NCBI RefSeq assembly: GCF_003674065.1
Contig: NZ_RDBE01000006.1
Location: 394,410-458,409 of the forward strand
Reading direction: 5' to 3'
DNA length: 64,000 nt
Source of the DNA: Nocardioides mangrovicus
GTDB lineage: Bacteria; Actinomycetota; Actinomycetes; Propionibacteriales; Nocardioidaceae
The notes beneath the pieces were generated by a model, which ran no database searches, had not been told where the DNA came from, and worked only from the letters and a program-made list of their open reading frames with translations. Within the stretch, counting starts at the first letter, position 1, and each line of letters begins with the position of its first letter. Both the position numbers and the translations under genes were made by a program. Below are positions 3,486-12,234 of the stretch, piece after piece.

Positions 3486-4751
<1,266 letters not shown>

Positions 4752-4794
4752 TTACTCGGTTTGCTGGACATGTTGCCCACCCTGGGAGCCGAGA

Positions 4795-5259
4795 GTGGAC
4801 GATCTGGATCGCACCTTGCTCAGCCTGTTCACCGACGAGCCGCGCATCGGCGTCCTGGAGGCCTCGCGTCGCCTCGGCGTCGCCCGTGGCACGGTGCAGG
4901 CCCGCCTGGACAAGCTGTCCGCCACCGGAGTCGTCACCGGCTGGGCGCCCGCCCTCGACCCGGCCGCGATGGGCCATCCCGTTACGGCGTTCCTCACCCT
5001 CGAGATCCACCAGCAGAGCCAGGACCACGACACCGTCGGCCGCGCCCTGGCCACGATCCCCGAGGTGCTCGAGGCCTGCACCATCACCGGCCCGGGCGAC
5101 CTGTGGTGCCGCGTGGTCGCCCGCTCCAACACCGACCTGCAGCGCGTCATCGACGCCGTGCTGTCGATCCCCGGCGTGCTGCGCTCCAGCACCGTCATCG
5201 CGCTGGCCAGCCAGGTGGCCTACCGGGTCAGCCCCGTCCTCGGCGCCGAGGACGGCTAG
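4795..5259 (+). CDS. Lrp/AsnC family transcriptional regulator
   Basis: This 154-residue protein has an N-terminal helix-turn-helix (EASRRLGVARGTVQARLDKL) followed by the ligand-binding RAM domain (HPVTAFLTLEI ... EVLEACTITGPGDLWCRVVA). GTG 4795 gives the usual family length; upstream in-frame codons fall in the shared promoter. The gene is divergent from hppD, so it very probably senses an aromatic amino acid or a derivative and controls hppD. The gap contains an inverted repeat GCAACA (4745-4750) / TGTTGC (4771-4776) that could be its binding site. The DUF4234 gene follows after 11 bp. Confidence 0.9.
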   Translation: MDDLDRTLLSLFTDEPRIGVLEASRRLGVARGTVQARLDKLSATGVVTGWAPALDPAAMGHPVTAFLTLEIHQQSQDHDTVGRALATIPEVLEACTITGPGDLWCRVVARSNTDLQRVIDAVLSIPGVLRSSTVIALASQVAYRVSPVLGAEDG

Positions 5260-5693: not shown

Positions 5694-5711
5694 ACACCCA
5701 CGCGAGGCGTC

Positions 5712-5741
5712 GCGTAGCCCGAGCCCCAGCGAGGGCTACGC
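5712..5741 (+). terminator. Stem-loop after the DUF4234 gene
   Basis: A 9-bp perfect stem GCGTAGCCC (5712-5720) / GGGCTACGC (5733-5741) encloses a 12-nt loop. It lies 18 bp downstream of the plus-strand stop codon and has no T-run, as is usual for actinobacterial intrinsic terminators. Confidence 0.5.
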
Positions 5742-5812
5742 AGGAGCCGAGACGTCTGCGCAGCTAGCGGCAGGAGCGGGTTGGTCTGAAGCCGGGGAGT
5801 GCGCTCGCCAGG

Positions 5813-5876
5813 ATGCGACGCCTCACCGTCCCAGACCGGCGGCAATGCGACGCCTCACCATTCAAGACCGGCAGCT
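5813..5876. repeat. Two tandem copies of a 32-bp unit
   Basis: Units 5813-5844 and 5845-5876 share the first 15 bases (ATGCGACGCCTCACC) and 27 of 32 positions by eye. They lie head to tail just beyond the helicase stop codon, which overlaps the last two bases of the second unit. They may be remnants of a larger intergenic repeat. No function is evident. Confidence 0.6.
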
Positions 5877-7674
5877 AAGCCCCCCTCGCCCAGTCCCGGA
5901 TCCGCTCGATCCGCTGCTCGAGCTGCACCTCGCTGGCGACGGCCGACGGCGGCCCGCCCAGCTCCTTGCGCAGCGTGTTGTGCGTGACGCCGTGGGGCTG
6001 GCCGGTGCGGTGGTGCCAGGCGGCGACCAGCGAGTTCAGCTCCCGACGCAGCACCGAGAGCCGCTCGTGGGTGGCCGGCTCGCGCACCGACGGCTCGGGG
6101 GCGCCGGTCTGCTCGTCGCGACGCTTGCGGGCCCGGTCGCTCTGGCGCTGCCGCAGCAGGTCGCGCACCTGGTCGGCCTCGAGGAGGCCGGGGATGCCGA
6201 GGAAGTCCATCTCCTCCTCCGAGCCGACGTGCACCTCGCCCTCGTGGCCGAACTGGGCGCCCTCGTAGAGCACGTGGTCGAAGGTGGCGTCGGAGCCGAG
6301 GGCCTCGAAGGGCAGCGACTCCTCAGGCTCGGTCTGCGTCTGCTCCGCCGCGGCCAGCAGGTCCTTCTCGGCGGCGAAGATGTCGTCCTCGTCGCGCACG
6401 GTGCGGCCCAGGACGTGGTCGCGCTCGAGCTCCATCTCCGAGGCGAACCCGAGCAGGCCGGGCACCGAGGGGACGAACACCGACGCCGTCTCGCCGCGCG
6501 CGCGGGCCCGCACGAACCGGCCCACGGCCTGGGCGAAGAACAGCGGCGTGGAGATGGTGGTGGCGTAGACGCCGACCGCCAGCCGCGGCACGTCGACGCC
6601 CTCGGAGACCATGCGCACCGCGACCATCCAGCGCTGGTCGCCGTCGGTGAACTCCGCGATCCGCTTGGAGGCGGTCTTCTCGTCCGAGAGCACCACCACC
6701 GGCTTCTCGCCGGCCACCTCCGCGAGCAGCTTGGCGTACGCCCGCGCGGAGTCCTGGTCGCCGGCGATCACCAGACCACCGGCGTCGGGCACGTGCCGCC
6801 GCACCTCCGAGAGCCGCCGGTCGGCGGCGGCCAGCACCGACGGCACCCACGAGCCGTGCGGGTCGAGCGCGGTGCGCAGCGCCTGGGCGGTCATGTCCTT
6901 GGTCAGCGGCTCCCCCAGCCGGGCGGCCACCTCGTCGCCGGCCCGCGTGCGCCAGCTCATGGTGCCGCTGTAGGCCAGGAACAGCACCGGCCGCACGACG
7001 TGGTCGGCCAGCGCGTGGCCGTAGCCGTAGGTGTAGTCCGCCGCACTGCGCGGGACGCCGTCGGCGCCCGGTTCGTAGCGCACGAACGGGATCGGGTTGA
7101 CGTCGGAGCGAAACGGCGTGCCGGTCAGGCACAGCCGGCGCCGCGCCGGCTCGAACGCCTCGCGTACGGCCTCGCCCCAGCTCAGCGCGTCGCCGGCGTG
7201 GTGCACCTCGTCGAGGATGACCAGCGTCTTGGAGCGCTCGGTGCGGATCCGCAGCGCCAGCGGGTTGGCCGCCACGCCGGCGTAGGTGACGGCGATGCCG
7301 ACGAAGTCCTTGCTGGTGCGACCGGCCCGGCCGGCGTACGCCGGGTCCAGCGGGATGCCGACGCGCTCGGCGGCCTGCGCCCACTGGGTCTTCAGGTGCT
7401 CGGTCGGGGCGACGACGGTGACCTTGTCGATCACCCGGCGGGCGAGCAGCTCGTTGGCCACGGTCAGCGCGAACGTGGTCTTCCCGGCCCCCGGCGTCGC
7501 CACGGCGAGGAAGTCGCGGTTCTCGCCGTCGAAGTACCGCGTGAGCGCCGCCGACTGCCAGGCCCGCAGGCTGCCGGCCGTCCCCCAGGCGGCACGCTCG
7601 GGCCACGCCGGGGAGAGGTCGACGGGAGCGGGTCCACCTGATGAGGCGTCGAGCGGCTGGTCCTCCCCCGTCAC
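5875..7674 (-). CDS. DEAD/DEAH-box helicase (superfamily 2)
   Basis: This ATP-dependent nucleic-acid helicase has 599 residues. Visible motifs are Q-like LRAWQSAAL, Walker A TPGAGKTT (about residue 45), motif II LDEVHHAG (about 140), motif III LTGTPFRSD (about 170) and motif VI QAVGRFVRARARG (about 375). An acidic linker and a charged C-terminal helical domain follow. The GTG at 7674 overlaps the stop of the upstream metalloprotease (GTGA), implying translational coupling. In many actinobacteria this helicase follows the DUF3039 gene directly (family knowledge from memory); here three secreted protease genes intervene. Role in DNA repair or RNA metabolism is unproven. Confidence 0.9.
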   Translation of the reverse strand: MTGEDQPLDASSGGPAPVDLSPAWPERAAWGTAGSLRAWQSAALTRYFDGENRDFLAVATPGAGKTTFALTVANELLARRVIDKVTVVAPTEHLKTQWAQAAERVGIPLDPAYAGRAGRTSKDFVGIAVTYAGVAANPLALRIRTERSKTLVILDEVHHAGDALSWGEAVREAFEPARRRLCLTGTPFRSDVNPIPFVRYEPGADGVPRSAADYTYGYGHALADHVVRPVLFLAYSGTMSWRTRAGDEVAARLGEPLTKDMTAQALRTALDPHGSWVPSVLAAADRRLSEVRRHVPDAGGLVIAGDQDSARAYAKLLAEVAGEKPVVVLSDEKTASKRIAEFTDGDQRWMVAVRMVSEGVDVPRLAVGVYATTISTPLFFAQAVGRFVRARARGETASVFVPSVPGLLGFASEMELERDHVLGRTVRDEDDIFAAEKDLLAAAEQTQTEPEESLPFEALGSDATFDHVLYEGAQFGHEGEVHVGSEEEMDFLGIPGLLEADQVRDLLRQRQSDRARKRRDEQTGAPEPSVREPATHERLSVLRRELNSLVAAWHHRTGQPHGVTHNTLRKELGGPPSAVASEVQLEQRIERIRDWARGA

Positions 7675-8699
7675 GACGCCCGGTGCGGGGCGCGGTAGTG
7701 CGCCCAGCTGAGGTCCATGTACGAGGACTGGTCCGGCGTGAACTGGTACATCGCCTCGTCCCAGCTGTAGTCCATGAAGTTGTGGATCGCGTCGTCGCCG
7801 ACCCACTGCGGGTGGTCCGCGTCCTGGACGCAGGTGTCCTTGCCGACCGGGTCGCCCGAGGTCGGGTAGGCCTGCACCGGGGTGTCGGCCAGTCCGTCGT
7901 TGTCGACGCAGTCGTCCACCGGGTCGGGTGCCTCGGTGCTGCCGACGGCCTGGTCGTTGAAGACGTGGCGCAGCCCGAGCCAGTGGCCGATCTCGTGCAC
8001 CGCGGTGTTGCCCAGGTTGAAGTGGGTCAGGTTCCCACCGGGCAGCGACTGGTCGTTGACGATCAGCCCGTCCAGACGCGGGTGCGCGGCGTACTGGTAG
8101 GGGAAGGTCGCGTACCCGAGCAGCCCGCTGCTGCGGCTGGGCTGCACGAAGTAGATGTTGAGCGTGTACGCGTGTCCCTGGTGCAGCGTCCGCTTCATGC
8201 GGTTCGCCGTCGCCCCGGGGGCGCTGACGTGGTACCAGGCCTCGTTGCGGGTCTTGGTCACCCCGCGCAGCGCGAACCGGAAGCTGGTGTCGGCCGTCGT
8301 GGTGCTGTTGACGTCCGGCGTCCGCCCGAGGGCCTCCTGGCCCGCGTAGGCCTGGTTAAGCACGGCGATCTGGCGGCGGACGCCCGCCAGGGTCGCGTGG
8401 CGCTCGCCGCGGTGGGTGCCCTCGATGATGTGGGCCCGCACCCCGATGACGATCGACCCCGGCGCGTACTGCGCCTGCCGCCGGGTGGCCTGCGAGCGCA
8501 CCGCGCGGTCGACGGCCCGCGCAGTGGCGGCCGACATCGTGCCGCCCGCCTCGGATCGCTCGACAACCTGCGTCGAGCGGTGGGACGAGACCGGCTCCTC
8601 CTCGGCCGAGGCCGAGGAGGACAGGCCCGCCCCACCGCATACGACGCCGACCAGCGCGCCGGCCGCGAAGACGCGGACCGGCACACGAGGTGACTTCAC
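7671..8699 (-). CDS. Secreted zinc metalloprotease, M43/pappalysin-like (copy 1)
   Basis: This exported metalloprotease of about 342 residues has a signal peptide (to about residue 33), a short pro-region and a catalytic domain with the extended zinc site HEIGHWLGLRH and the Met-turn segment HNFMDYSWD, as in metzincins of family M43. The pre-catalytic strand block (GVRAHIIEGTHRGERH) is shared with the two downstream paralogues. I chose GTG 8699 over a TTG 12 codons upstream because it puts a typical basic N-region (KSPRVPVR) directly before the hydrophobic core. Its stop overlaps the helicase start. The substrate is unknown; it probably acts outside the cell. Confidence 0.85.
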   Translation of the reverse strand: MKSPRVPVRVFAAGALVGVVCGGAGLSSSASAEEEPVSSHRSTQVVERSEAGGTMSAATARAVDRAVRSQATRRQAQYAPGSIVIGVRAHIIEGTHRGERHATLAGVRRQIAVLNQAYAGQEALGRTPDVNSTTTADTSFRFALRGVTKTRNEAWYHVSAPGATANRMKRTLHQGHAYTLNIYFVQPSRSSGLLGYATFPYQYAAHPRLDGLIVNDQSLPGGNLTHFNLGNTAVHEIGHWLGLRHVFNDQAVGSTEAPDPVDDCVDNDGLADTPVQAYPTSGDPVGKDTCVQDADHPQWVGDDAIHNFMDYSWDEAMYQFTPDQSSYMDLSWAHYRAPHRAS

Positions 8700-8744
8700 C
8701 GGTGGTGGGTTCCTCTCAGGAGGGGGACGAAGCAAGCGTGCAGG

Positions 8745-9719
8745 TCAGGAGGCGCGGTAGGCCGCCCGGGCCGCCGAGATGCGTGCGGCCTGACCCGCGG
8801 TGAACTGGTACATGAAGTAGTCCGGCGCGTAGTCCATGAAGTTGTGCACCGGGTCGGTACCGGCCGCCGGGCAGGTGTCGCGCTCGGCGGGCTGGTACTG
8901 CGGCTCGCCCTCGGCCGGGGTGTCGCCGACGTAGTCGTTGGGCTCGGCGCAGCCGGATCCGGCGTTGCCGTCGTAGCCCTGGAAGGTGTGGAGCAGACCC
9001 AGCCAGTGACCCACCTCGTGCACCACGGTGTCGCCCTCGTTGTACGGCGCCAGCTTGCCGCCGCGAATGCTGCTGTACTGGATGACCGACCCGTCGAGCA
9101 GCTTGCCCCGCTTGCCGCGGTTCTGCCACGGGAAGGTCGAGATGCCGAGCAGACCGCCGGGCAGGCCGGTGAAGTACAGGTTGAGCGTGTTGCGGCCGCC
9201 GCGGTGCAGCTTCTTCTTCATCGAGTTCAGCTGGCCGACGGTGCGCAGGTGGGCCCAGCGCTTGGACTTCGTGGTGCTGATCGAGCGCAGCCGGAACCGG
9301 ACGCCGGTGTCGACGCCGGGGCCCTCGCCGCCGGCGTAGGCCAGGTTGAGCCACTTGACCTGCTGGCGCACCTGCCGCTTGGTCGCGTGACGGTGACGGT
9401 CGCGCTTCTTGGTGCCCACGATGATGTGCGCCCGCACCTTGATGACCCCGCCGCCACGGTGGGCGGCCACCGCGCGCTGGGTCGCCTTCGACGTCAGCAC
9501 GCCCTGCACCTGCCGGGCGGTCGCGGCCGAGATCCGGCCCTCGTCGGCCGGCGTCAGCAGCCGGTCACCGGGCTTGGTGGCCTTGGCCGTGGCCTGCTGG
9601 TGGGCGCGCGCCGAGGCGGGCTGGGCGGCCTGGGCCGACGGCACGGACAGGCCGGCGAGCCCGCCGGCCCCGAGGAGCAGGGAGGCGAGCGCGACGGCGC
9701 GGGTGCGAGTGGTGGTCAT
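8745..9719 (-). CDS. Secreted zinc metalloprotease, M43/pappalysin-like (copy 2)
   Basis: The 324-residue paralogue has a clear signal peptide ending near SVPSAQA, a Lys/Gln-rich pro-segment, then the conserved block KVRAHIIVGTKKRDRH, the zinc site HEVGHWLGLLHTF and the Met-turn VHNFMDYAPD. Cysteines after the zinc site (GSGCAEPN, RDTCPAAG) correspond to those of copy 3 and may form a disulfide. ATG 9719 is preceded by GGGAGC on the minus strand, a plausible ribosome site. Gaps of 45 and 36 bp separate it from copies 1 and 3, consistent with one transcript. The mature part is unusually rich in Lys/Arg compared with its siblings. Confidence 0.86.
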   Translation of the reverse strand: MTTTRTRAVALASLLLGAGGLAGLSVPSAQAAQPASARAHQQATAKATKPGDRLLTPADEGRISAATARQVQGVLTSKATQRAVAAHRGGGVIKVRAHIIVGTKKRDRHRHATKRQVRQQVKWLNLAYAGGEGPGVDTGVRFRLRSISTTKSKRWAHLRTVGQLNSMKKKLHRGGRNTLNLYFTGLPGGLLGISTFPWQNRGKRGKLLDGSVIQYSSIRGGKLAPYNEGDTVVHEVGHWLGLLHTFQGYDGNAGSGCAEPNDYVGDTPAEGEPQYQPAERDTCPAAGTDPVHNFMDYAPDYFMYQFTAGQAARISAARAAYRAS

Positions 9720-9755
9720 GGTGGGAGCTCCCAAGATGTGGCGTGGTTGAAGGGG

Positions 9756-10688
9756 TCAGCGCCGCTGGCGGAACGTCGCCCAGGCGGAGAACATACGGGC
9801 AGCCTGCCCCGCGGTGAACTGGTCCATGCACGAGTCGAGGCTGTAGTCCATGAAGTTGTGCACCGGGTCGAGCCCCGGGCTCGGGCAGGTGTCGGCCGTA
9901 GTGTCGCAGCGATACTGCGGCGCGGCCTCCGCCGGGGTGTCGGCGACTCCGTCGCCGCTGCCCTCGCAGCCGCCCTGGAAGGTGTGCAGCAGCCCCAGCC
10001 AGTGACCGACCTCGTGGACCGCGGTGTCGCCCTCGTCGTAGGGCTTGAGCCGGCCGCCGGGCACCGTGTTGTAGGCGACGACGACGCCGTCGAGCCGCGG
10101 GTGCACGTGGTAGCGCCACGGGAACGTGGTGTAGCCGAGCAGCCCGTCGTGGGCGAGGTCGACGAAGTAGAGGTTGAGGGTGAAGCTCTTGCCCTGGTGC
10201 AGGCTGCGCTTCATCTGGTTCGCGACCCGGCCGGGCCCGCTGATGTGGAACCAGCGGTCGTTGACGGTGGCGGTGATCGAGCGCAGCCGGAAGCGGACGT
10301 GGGTGTCGGCGGCGACGCCCGGCGCCTCCTGCCCGGAGTAGGCCTTGTTGAGCTGCTTGACCTGCGCGATCACCTGCGCGCGCGTGGTGTGGCGGTCGTG
10401 ACGGTGGGTGCCCTTGATGACGTGGGCGCGGATCGGCACCACGATCGTCGAGGGCACCGAGCGCTCGCCCGAGGCCGCGAGGCGTCGGTTGACCTGCTCG
10501 GCGGCCGCTCGCGACAGGCTCGAGCCGACGTCGCGGCGATAGGTGGGCACCGACGTCGACCGAGCCGTGCCGCTCACGCAGGCCGTGCCGGCCGAGACCC
10601 CGGTCGACGCACCGTGCGCGGGCGCCGCGGCCAGCGCCGGGGCCAGCGAGAAGAGGAGCGCAGCAGCCAGGAGGAGGGCGCGCTTCAC
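9756..10688 (-). CDS. Secreted zinc metalloprotease, M43/pappalysin-like (copy 3)
   Basis: The 310-residue paralogue has a signal peptide (hydrophobic core LLLAAALLFSLAPAL), a pro-region, the block PIRAHVIKGTHRHDRH, the zinc site HEVGHWLGLLHTF and the Met-turn HNFMDYSLD. Paired cysteines flank the segment after the zinc site (GGCEGSG, YRCDTTADTCPS). The GTG start at 10688 overlaps the DUF3039 stop by 4 bp with GAGGA immediately upstream, so a secreted protease is translationally coupled to a cytoplasmic protein. It shares closer motifs with copy 2 (HEVGHWLGLLH) than with copy 1, suggesting stepwise tandem duplication. Confidence 0.86.
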   Translation of the reverse strand: MKRALLLAAALLFSLAPALAAAPAHGASTGVSAGTACVSGTARSTSVPTYRRDVGSSLSRAAAEQVNRRLAASGERSVPSTIVVPIRAHVIKGTHRHDRHTTRAQVIAQVKQLNKAYSGQEAPGVAADTHVRFRLRSITATVNDRWFHISGPGRVANQMKRSLHQGKSFTLNLYFVDLAHDGLLGYTTFPWRYHVHPRLDGVVVAYNTVPGGRLKPYDEGDTAVHEVGHWLGLLHTFQGGCEGSGDGVADTPAEAAPQYRCDTTADTCPSPGLDPVHNFMDYSLDSCMDQFTAGQAARMFSAWATFRQRR

Positions 10689-10939
10689 TCCTCGTCACCG
10701 TGCTTGAGGCTCTCCCAGATCTCCTGGCACTCGGGGCAGACCGGGAAGCGCTGCGGGTCGCGACTGGGCACCCACACCTTGCCGCACAGGGCGACGACCG
10801 GGGTGCCGTTGACCATGGCGTCCATCAGCCGGTCCTTGGGCACGAAGTGCGAGAACCGCTCGTGGTCGCCCTCGTCGGTGGGGACGGTGCGTCGGTCCTG
10901 CTCGACGTCGGTCAGGACCCCGGTCCCCTGTTCGCTCAC
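10685..10939 (-). CDS. DUF3039 family protein
   Basis: This 84-residue protein matches the actinobacterial DUF3039 family: HERFSHFVPKDRLMDAM, then GTPVVALCGKVWVPSRDP and FPVCPECQEIWE. The Cys pair in PVCPEC together with the Cys in ALCGK and the conserved His may bind zinc (inference). Function is unknown. In other actinobacteria the gene sits next to a DEAD/DEAH helicase and a YqgE gene; here YqgE is upstream in the same orientation but the helicase is displaced by three protease genes. Confidence 0.88.
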   Translation of the reverse strand: MSEQGTGVLTDVEQDRRTVPTDEGDHERFSHFVPKDRLMDAMVNGTPVVALCGKVWVPSRDPQRFPVCPECQEIWESLKHGDEE

Positions 10940-10997
10940 CGGCGCAGTTTAGGACGCCGCGCCGACGAGCGCGACGGGCGCCGATGTTCGGGCTCGA

Positions 10998-11639
10998 TCA
11001 GTTCTGGGTGGGGTCCGCCGGCCAGGTGGCCAGCCAGGCCAGGTCGCCCGGCTGGCGGCCCAGCACCTGGCGCCACAGCGCCGCGGGGTCCTCGACCAGC
11101 AGGTCCTCGGGGACGCTGGGCACGACGTACCAGGCGCCCTCGGCGATCTCGCCGAGCAGCTGCGACCAGGACCAGCCCGCGTAGCCGGCGTAGATGCGCA
11201 GGCCCGCCAGCGCCGGGCCGACCAGCTCGGTCGGGGTGTCGAGGTCGACCAGCCCGGTGGCCTCGTCCAGCGCGCGCCAACCGACCGGGTCCCCGGCCCG
11301 CGGATCGCTGAGCCGGCCGACGGCGACCGCGGACTCCGGGCTGACCGGGCCGCCCTCGAAGAGCACCGCCGGGGCCGAGACGGCCGGACCCCAGGCGGCG
11401 AGCACGTCGCCGACGGCGACGGTGCCGGGCCGGTTCAGGACGACCCCGAGCACGCTCCCCTCGCGATCGACGGCGTCCTCACCGCCACTGTCACCGTCAC
11501 CATCACGGTCGCCGGTCTCGACCTCGAGCAGCAGCACGATGGTGCGCACGAAGTGCGGGTCGCGCAGCATCGGCGCCGCGACGAGCAGGCACCCGGCGGC
11601 GGGCACGATGTTGGCTGCGCGCAGGTCCGCCGGCTCCAC
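10998..11639 (-). CDS. YqgE/AlgH family protein
   Basis: This 213-residue cytoplasmic protein has the YqgE fold signatures: GCLLVAAPMLRDPHFVRTIVLLLE at the N-terminus, VLGVVLNRP, LFEGGPVSPESA and IYAGYAGWSWSQLLGEIAEGAWYV. The family function is not settled. GTG 11639 gives a standard N-terminus. An acidic insertion of about 20 residues (ETGDRDGDGDSGGEDAVDRE, residues 41-60) separates the first two core strands where most homologues have a short D-rich loop; at DNA level it contains short caccgt/caccat repeats. The gene is 58 bp upstream of DUF3039 on the same strand. Confidence 0.9.
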   Translation of the reverse strand: MEPADLRAANIVPAAGCLLVAAPMLRDPHFVRTIVLLLEVETGDRDGDGDSGGEDAVDREGSVLGVVLNRPGTVAVGDVLAAWGPAVSAPAVLFEGGPVSPESAVAVGRLSDPRAGDPVGWRALDEATGLVDLDTPTELVGPALAGLRIYAGYAGWSWSQLLGEIAEGAWYVVPSVPEDLLVEDPAALWRQVLGRQPGDLAWLATWPADPTQN

Positions 11640-11658
11640 CCGCCCATCGTGGCACGGG

Positions 11659-12234
11659 TCAGGCGGCGAGGACCTCGCGCAGCCGGCGCACGAAGCGGGC
11701 CGAGCCGCGCGGCACGCGCTCGACCCGGCTCGGCGCCACGGAGGGCTCCGGGCGCTCGGCAAGCCTCGCCCGCGCCGCTTGTTCCAGCTCGCGCCCGGCG
11801 GAGACGGCGCGGGAGTCGGGGCGCACGTCCACGCGGCCGCCGATCCCGGCCATGGCCGCGAGCAGCTGGCGCTCCTTGGCGGTGGCCCGGCGCATGGCCT
11901 CGCCGACCTCGGGGTCCACCGGGTCAACGAGCTGGGCGTCGAGCAGCGCGCGCAGCCCGGGCAGCGAGCGGGCCGCCTCGGCCCAGGCCTCGCTGACGGC
12001 GCCCGCGCGGTCGGCCGAGGACTCGGGGTCGGCGTCGAGGCGCTGCTCGAGCAGGCCGACGAGGCGGTGGTGCCAGCGGAACTGCAGGGCGCCGACGAGG
12101 TCGCGGTGGTCGTGGAACGGGGCAGGCACGGTGGTGGGCAGAACGGGAGCCAGGGTGTGGTCCTCGCGCTGCTCGAGCCGCTCGGCGAGCTCGCGCAGGA
12201 CGTCCCCGCGGCGGTGCTGTGCGGTCCAACTCAT
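11659..12234 (-). CDS. Hypothetical helical protein under TetR-type control
   Basis: I do not recognise this 191-residue protein. It is soluble, mostly helical and rich in Ala, Arg, Glu and Leu, with no signal peptide, membrane segment or cysteine cluster. ATG 12234 is supported by AAGGAG 7 nt upstream on the minus strand. It begins 24 bp from a near-perfect TetR-type palindrome and is divergent from a TetR gene, so its expression is probably repressed by that regulator. YqgE follows 19 bp downstream and may be read through from the same promoter. Confidence 0.65.
   Translation of the reverse strand: MSWTAQHRRGDVLRELAERLEQREDHTLAPVLPTTVPAPFHDHRDLVGALQFRWHHRLVGLLEQRLDADPESSADRAGAVSEAWAEAARSLPGLRALLDAQLVDPVDPEVGEAMRRATAKERQLLAAMAGIGGRVDVRPDSRAVSAGRELEQAARARLAERPEPSVAPSRVERVPRGSARFVRRLREVLAA

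Follow-up and report, generated by a model that had tools for sequence, protein, structure and literature searches.

The stretch of DNA analysed here, called the window below, comprises 64,000 nucleotides (nt) of the Nocardioides mangrovicus genome (contig NZ_RDBE01000006.1, positions 394,410 to 458,409), and our subject is a run of five minus-strand genes within it in which three paralogous M43 metalloprotease genes stand between a DUF3039 gene and a helicase gene. Read along the coding strand, and given in window positions, these are the DUF3039 gene (10685..10939; 84 amino acids (aa), with a CxxC motif and a GTG start; PF11238, 103.6 bits); M43 copies a (9756..10688; 310 aa, GTG start), b (8745..9719; 324 aa, ATG start at 9719) and c (7671..8699; 342 aa, GTG start at 8699); and a DEAD/DEAH (ResIII-type) helicase gene (5875..7674; 599 aa, GTG start at 7674; PF04851, 54.4 bits; PF00270, 40.1 bits). 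Copies a, b and c all exceed the Pfam PF05572 cut-off of 23 bits (59.6, 41.8 and 32.2 bits, respectively) and carry the M43 hallmarks, an HExxHxxGxxH zinc site (HEVGHWLGLLH in a and b, HEIGHWLGLRH in c) and a Met-turn (NFMDY in each), so that profiles and motifs bear out the first-pass annotation, which had described three tandem M43-type genes at this place; all three are intact. The genome (4.1 Mb in 23 contigs) has no M43 match besides these. Their N-termini are basic and then hydrophobic, resembling Sec signals, with hydropathy peaks of 2.1-2.7 versus 0.3 in DUF3039 and the helicase, and the three proteases are probably secreted. Third-codon-position G+C is 0.94-0.97 in DUF3039, copy a, copy b and the helicase, and 0.96 at the high position of copy c, whose frame was counted one base off with the position shifted accordingly.

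The two outer junctions are 4-nt GTGA overlaps of stop and start codon, also as first described: DUF3039 ends in GAGGAGTGA and copy a starts GTGAAG, while copy c ends in TCGTGA and the helicase starts GTGACG. The a/b and b/c junctions have no overlap and consist of spacers of 36 and 45 nt, measured from the chosen starts, containing the Shine-Dalgarno-like sequences GGGAG and GAGAGGA. These starts differ from those in the mechanical open reading frame (ORF) list (TTG 9734 for copy b, TTG 8735 for copy c, 7806 for the helicase); for the helicase we took GTG 7674, the one that gives the overlap with copy c, and the DUF3039 start was picked by a -10-like box, TAAACT (10946..10951, minus strand), of the leaderless type and 6 nt 5' of its GTG.

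A survey of 149 Nocardioidaceae genomes from 26 genera, with 60 DUF3039 loci fetched from 59 of them, places this arrangement in context. Matches to DUF3039 were found in 145 genomes, to this type of M43 in 83 and to the helicase in 130 (weak and partial in G002). Most genomes had only their best 11-14 first-look candidates scored in the family, order and class searches for M43 (8 in the helicase search), and M43 absences outside the genus of the window may thus be overcounted; the search of the genus (24 genomes) scored all candidates. An M43 gene lies directly behind DUF3039, in what we call the slot, in 40 of the 149 genomes, the window included, and in 11 of the 26 genera; a helicase follows it in 35 of these, and none was found in the fetched stretch for the other five. 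Within the genus the slot protease is present in 20 of 24 genomes (absent from G028, G043, G075 and G098). The helicase appears in 55 of the 60 fetched loci, 34 with one M43 gene in between and 21 without, and the widest gap where the pair is direct is 293 nt (L120; 59 nt in L066). Where both genes were matched and the locus was not fetched, 73 of 74 genomes have them within 150 nt (the exception, G010, has 3.8 kb). The first-pass annotation had taken DUF3039 and the helicase as usual neighbours in actinobacteria, which is upheld in Nocardioidaceae, although in other families other genes often intervene.

The stop-start overlaps are likewise widespread. With ATG, GTG and TTG starts admitted, a 4-nt overlap of the DUF3039 stop with the M43 start occurs in every one of the 20 genus loci and, across the family, in 27 of 40; the corresponding overlap of M43 with the helicase occurs in 15 of the 20 genus loci and 20 of 35 from the family, 11 of these last 20 needing TTG; the window is included throughout, and the counts stand without a computed chance rate. 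M43-less loci such as L109, L110, L114 and L115 have DUF3039 and the helicase overlapping directly, again by GTGA. In gene order, strand and the -10-like box before DUF3039, the window matches the operon type of Nocardioidaceae, and its proteases share with the single-copy slot M43s of the family (Marmoricola-like, Mumia and others) the slot, the strand, mostly the -10-like box, often the overlaps, and a branch of the larger of the two trees described below. They differ in being three instead of one. More than one M43 in the slot was not seen in any other slot locus among the family and wider-class loci examined; triplication was found only in this genome, and a single protease is the normal state of the slot. 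What had first seemed odd, secreted proteases spliced into a conserved pair, is therefore usual in the genus, and only the triplication is peculiar. Of the two origins originally offered, precise insertion or old co-evolution, the latter fits better; we reject a recent precise insertion of three genes, because single M43s occupy this slot throughout the genus and in part of the wider family.

A TANNNT box shortly 5' of the start codon is described in PMC3160421 as a mark of leaderless genes in high-GC actinobacteria. Among DUF3039 genes we found it 6-8 nt before a start codon in 55 of the 60 from Nocardioidaceae (82 of 92 overall), and the same test applied to controls in the family returned 0 of 41 slot M43 and 1 of 55 helicase candidate starts; the comparison excluded 17 loci that were duplicates or unneeded, as well as genes lacking a candidate start. 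Over all loci the figures were 3 of 70 for M43 and 11 of 86 for the helicase, and because of the latter some helicases outside the family may own a promoter. Leaderless -10 boxes were sought at the M43 and helicase starts of the window and none was found; a sigma-70 consensus scan of 5700-11700, with a consensus that suits this genome poorly, found no promoter. With a -10-like box before DUF3039 alone, a single mRNA is likely to carry all five genes, as spacing and overlaps also suggest. One observation speaks against this: of three terminator-like sites found (0.7 expected), one lies on the coding strand, a hairpin (9809-9797) inside copy a, some 40 nt from its 3' end, which is probably due to chance but could weaken expression past that copy.

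Two trees bear on the origin of the copies, a careful one of 70 rows and a quick, unrooted one of 136 rows, in which 23 of 69 unlinked actinobacterial rows were kept and rows below 220 aa and eight genome-repeating loci were excluded. Copies a, b and c form one clade in both (support 100/99 and 98), from which we conclude that they arose in place, the outcome on which the first-pass annotation had proposed that a tree should decide. The unlinked M43s of the genus form a separate clade (99/99, 70-row tree). Identity among the three is 42-48%, and to the other slot M43s of the genus 35-41% (medians). Copies a and b group together (95/72, 70-row tree), and constraining b with c or a with c is not rejected (approximately unbiased test, p 0.53 and 0.56). 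On the 136-row tree, 39 Nocardioidaceae slot M43s, the three copies and a copy lying upstream of DUF3039 in genome G116 fall on one side of a single branch (SH-like approximate likelihood-ratio test 95). The smaller tree is less favourable to a single slot lineage in the family: it does not unite all the slot M43s, distributing slot versus elsewhere over four changes, with weak deep branches; six slot rows group weakly (64/64) with unlinked M43s, and five rows that are unlinked or upstream are placed within the slot M43s.

The slot protease evolves faster than its neighbours and is less constant. When 19 genus loci with a slot protease are compared in 171 pairs, M43 has a median identity of 44%, against 77% for the helicase and 74% for DUF3039. 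M43 and helicase identities rise together over these pairs (r 0.86), which fits vertical descent. Mapped on a helicase tree of 56 chosen loci, presence and absence of the protease takes 11 changes, 7 of them forced by well-supported branches, and the sister of the window is G028, which has no protease. The protease thus appears to come and go, more likely by loss, while the pair around it stays unbroken.

Several other arrangements were seen in the family. In G116 (L086, 865-3187) the order is M43, DUF3039, M43, helicase, and the upstream copy pairs with the slot copy of its own genome (99/90, 70-row tree); judged from these sequences, we take G116 to be a second, independent duplication of the slot protease. 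In two genomes without a slot protease, G138 (L133) and G111 (L134), an M43 of another branch, with the site HEVGHWLMLEH, precedes DUF3039 by about 5 kb on the same strand. Motif search had suggested that some unlinked M43s are non-catalytic, an idea we dropped, as the four sequences inspected read HEVGHWLMLEH, in which HExxH is intact and the Gly is missing. Unlinked M43 genes also stand in tandem pairs at other places in the genomes of Nocardioidaceae (L132, L137, L139, L140, L141, L142 and L143), so local duplication of M43 genes is not rare. In six further Nocardioidaceae genomes that were checked, M43 is unlinked, the nearest about 13 kb from DUF3039. Draft genome G095 holds two DUF3039-helicase loci, one with a protease and one without (L078 and L079), possibly from a mixed assembly.

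The closest known enzymes are the unicellular pappalysins mirolysin and ulilysin. By comparison with a structural model of copy a, the only copy modelled (predicted local distance difference test score, pLDDT, 69), the fold is that of a metzincin of the pappalysin family: the model superposes on promirolysin with Z 20.3 and a root-mean-square deviation of 3.7 A over 221 residues, and on ulilysin with Z 17.8-18.1. Besides this fold, mirolysin (Tannerella forsythia) and ulilysin share with the copies the HExxHxxGLxH site, the Met-turn and a pocket aspartate, which lies two residues before the last conserved cysteine and is kept in a, b and c. Mirolysin, according to PMC6949598, has disulfides 243-271 and 262-291, a pocket aspartate, and a pro-segment with a Cys-Gly motif, or cysteine switch, in which Cys23 blocks the zinc. 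Unlike these enzymes, the copies have no Cys-Gly pro-segment motif and their genes sit in a conserved actinobacterial pair; copies b and c differ further in lacking the N-terminal cysteine and the second disulfide pair and in having longer S-loops, the longest insert being in c.

These losses are unusual for the slot. We counted cysteines in 43 slot-family proteins (39 slot M43s, the upstream copy of G116 and the three of the window), and four cysteines follow HExxH in 41, including all 40 single-copy proteins counted, the G116 upstream copy among them; only b and c have two. Copy a has all five conserved cysteines, four of which align with those paired in mirolysin, while b and c keep the equivalent of the first pair and lack cysteines matching 262 and 291. 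The fifth, N-terminal cysteine occupies one aligned column in 39 of 43 proteins, those without it being b, c and two others, and every slot-family protein except b has some cysteine before the zinc site, the single one of c lying within the signal-like stretch. Since the trees do not settle the branching order of a, b and c, the losses in b and c may represent one event or two. In copy a, residues 52-77 align with promirolysin starting at its residue 33; the N-terminal cysteine precedes them, about where a switch would be expected, making it a candidate. Three points tell against this assignment: the cysteine is not followed by Gly as in mirolysin, two proteins from outside the window also lack it, and the model of copy a falls below pLDDT 50 around it. 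For these reasons we infer a switch from position only, and offer as a hypothesis that copy a would be latent and b and c unlatched.

We hold it to be quite likely that the locus is an operon running from promoter through DUF3039 and M43 to the helicase, and that its protease gene, single in the lineage, was tandemly triplicated in place. Under this explanation the five genes would be made from one leaderless mRNA; the stop-start overlaps would carry translation across the two outer junctions, from the DUF3039 gene into copy a and from copy c into the helicase gene, and copies b and c would be translated from ribosome sites of their own. Each protease would be exported by the Sec route and would cut proteins before Lys or Arg, a specificity proposed because all three retain the pocket aspartate of mirolysin. 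The N-terminal cysteine would hold copy a inactive as a zymogen; because both lack that cysteine and one disulfide, b and c would be activated in another way and may have other substrates. On this view the operon is conserved and the protease would be its accessory cassette, which evolves fast and is missing from some genomes that keep the neighbouring genes.

The linkage extends beyond the family. In a sample of the class, DUF3039 was matched in 192 of 197 genomes, and M43 in 31 genomes outside Nocardioidaceae. In 16 of the 31, the first recognised gene to follow DUF3039 on its strand is M43 (gap to the matched part 56-293 nt; our families f12, f20, f28, f36 and f43), so the linkage spans at least five other actinobacterial families; in four more genomes, of f20, M43 directly follows the helicase within this neighbourhood. 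For the other 11, the genes are far apart or on different contigs in six, the place of DUF3039 is not among the listed matches in four, and one has no DUF3039 match. The f20 loci L266, L267, L268 and L269 have the order DUF3039, other gene or genes, helicase, M43, and in L268 a sortase gene lies between DUF3039 and the helicase. Among the best 80 of at least 513 relatives, 16 lie by DUF3039, four in Nocardioidaceae and 12 in Nonomuraea, Actinomadura, Sinosporangium, Planotetraspora, Sphaerisporangium and Spongiactinospora. Those 12 loci resemble the window in having M43 behind DUF3039 on the same strand and a helicase downstream; they differ in that no 4-nt overlaps were seen, the M43s lie on a different branch of the tree, and in nine of them up to 4 kb separates M43 from the helicase. 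Three other families of the order contributed 45 genomes with an M43 match; in 21 of the 22 checked for linkage no M43 was near DUF3039 among the matches listed, and for the remaining one (G274) the place of M43 is not listed.

What keeps a protease in this place can be read in several ways. One is that DUF3039, protease and helicase work together, such as in a process that combines envelope stress on the outside with nucleic-acid repair on the inside, and that selection keeps them linked. The 16 and four linked genomes outside the family favour this, as does the persistence of linkage while order varies (DUF3039-M43-helicase, DUF3039-M43-others-helicase, DUF3039-others-helicase-M43). We nevertheless think it unlikely: M43 is missing from behind DUF3039 in 109 of the 149 family genomes, most of which retain an intact pair, and the 11 changes on the helicase tree and the far faster evolution of the protease also argue against it. 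We know of no pathway shared by the three proteins.

A permissive insertion site behind DUF3039, into which M43s of different branches were inserted independently in each family, is an improbable alternative. Linked M43s of different families do not form one clade on the 136-row tree, where they are scattered among unlinked ones and linkage takes six changes (three upstream copies counted as linked), and ancestral linkage with many losses and repeated capture would both fit. For Nocardioidaceae a single origin is enough on the 136-row tree but not on the 70-row tree; the loci L264 (f20) and L250 (f28) have in common the order DUF3039-M43-MFS-...-helicase, with a major facilitator superfamily (MFS) transporter gene between M43 and helicase, hinting at one ancestral block; and, the larger tree being unrooted and quick, unlinked copies could derive from linked ones. 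A bolder proposal, which we regard as rather doubtful, is an old actinobacterial functional module of DUF3039, secreted pappalysin and helicase tying extracellular proteolysis to an intracellular nucleic-acid process, here with the protease expanded to a three-member set, one latent and two constitutively active after shedding the cysteine latch, expressed from a single mRNA. Finally, separate arrival of a, b and c by horizontal transfer or from the unlinked M43 family is very improbable, since, despite a mutual identity of just 42-48%, they form one clade in both trees, apart from the unlinked M43s of the genus, in a genome where no other M43 was found. Returning to the accessory cassette triplicated in place, the likeliest reason for the position of the protease, offered as a guess, is steady co-expression with conserved genes and not a shared pathway; the linkage across families weighs on the other side, as it would fit a functional tie too.

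Two neighbouring regions of the window complete the picture. Upstream of DUF3039 on the same strand is a yqgE/algH-like gene (DUF179; 10998..11567; PF02622, 79.3 bits; NF001270, E 6.7e-59 and 198.6 bits, below the cut-off of 225). Beyond the helicase lie a minus-strand gene for a dioxygenase-like protein with two glyoxalase domains (3486-4751) and, divergent from it, an AsnC-type regulator gene on the plus strand (4699-5259), their starts overlapping in the ORF list.

The operon slot is real and recurs among genomes. It houses a pappalysin that is probably secreted, and here the gene is triplicated in place, with two of the copies unusual in having lost cysteines. The slot genes are likely, by comparison among genomes, expressed as one unit, and we infer the enzyme function. 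To our knowledge no function of DUF3039 is known beyond possible metal binding. PMC9425974 describes DUF3039 as 'possibly metal-binding', and in the parts of the DUF3039 literature searched we found no mention of an M43 protease, nor, in the portions of the open-access literature covered, of a recurrent link between DUF3039 and a secreted protease. Linkage to a probably secreted protease offers a handle on DUF3039 and the helicase, and the triplication is a natural experiment, with enzymes of single origin, one with and two without a candidate zymogen cysteine.

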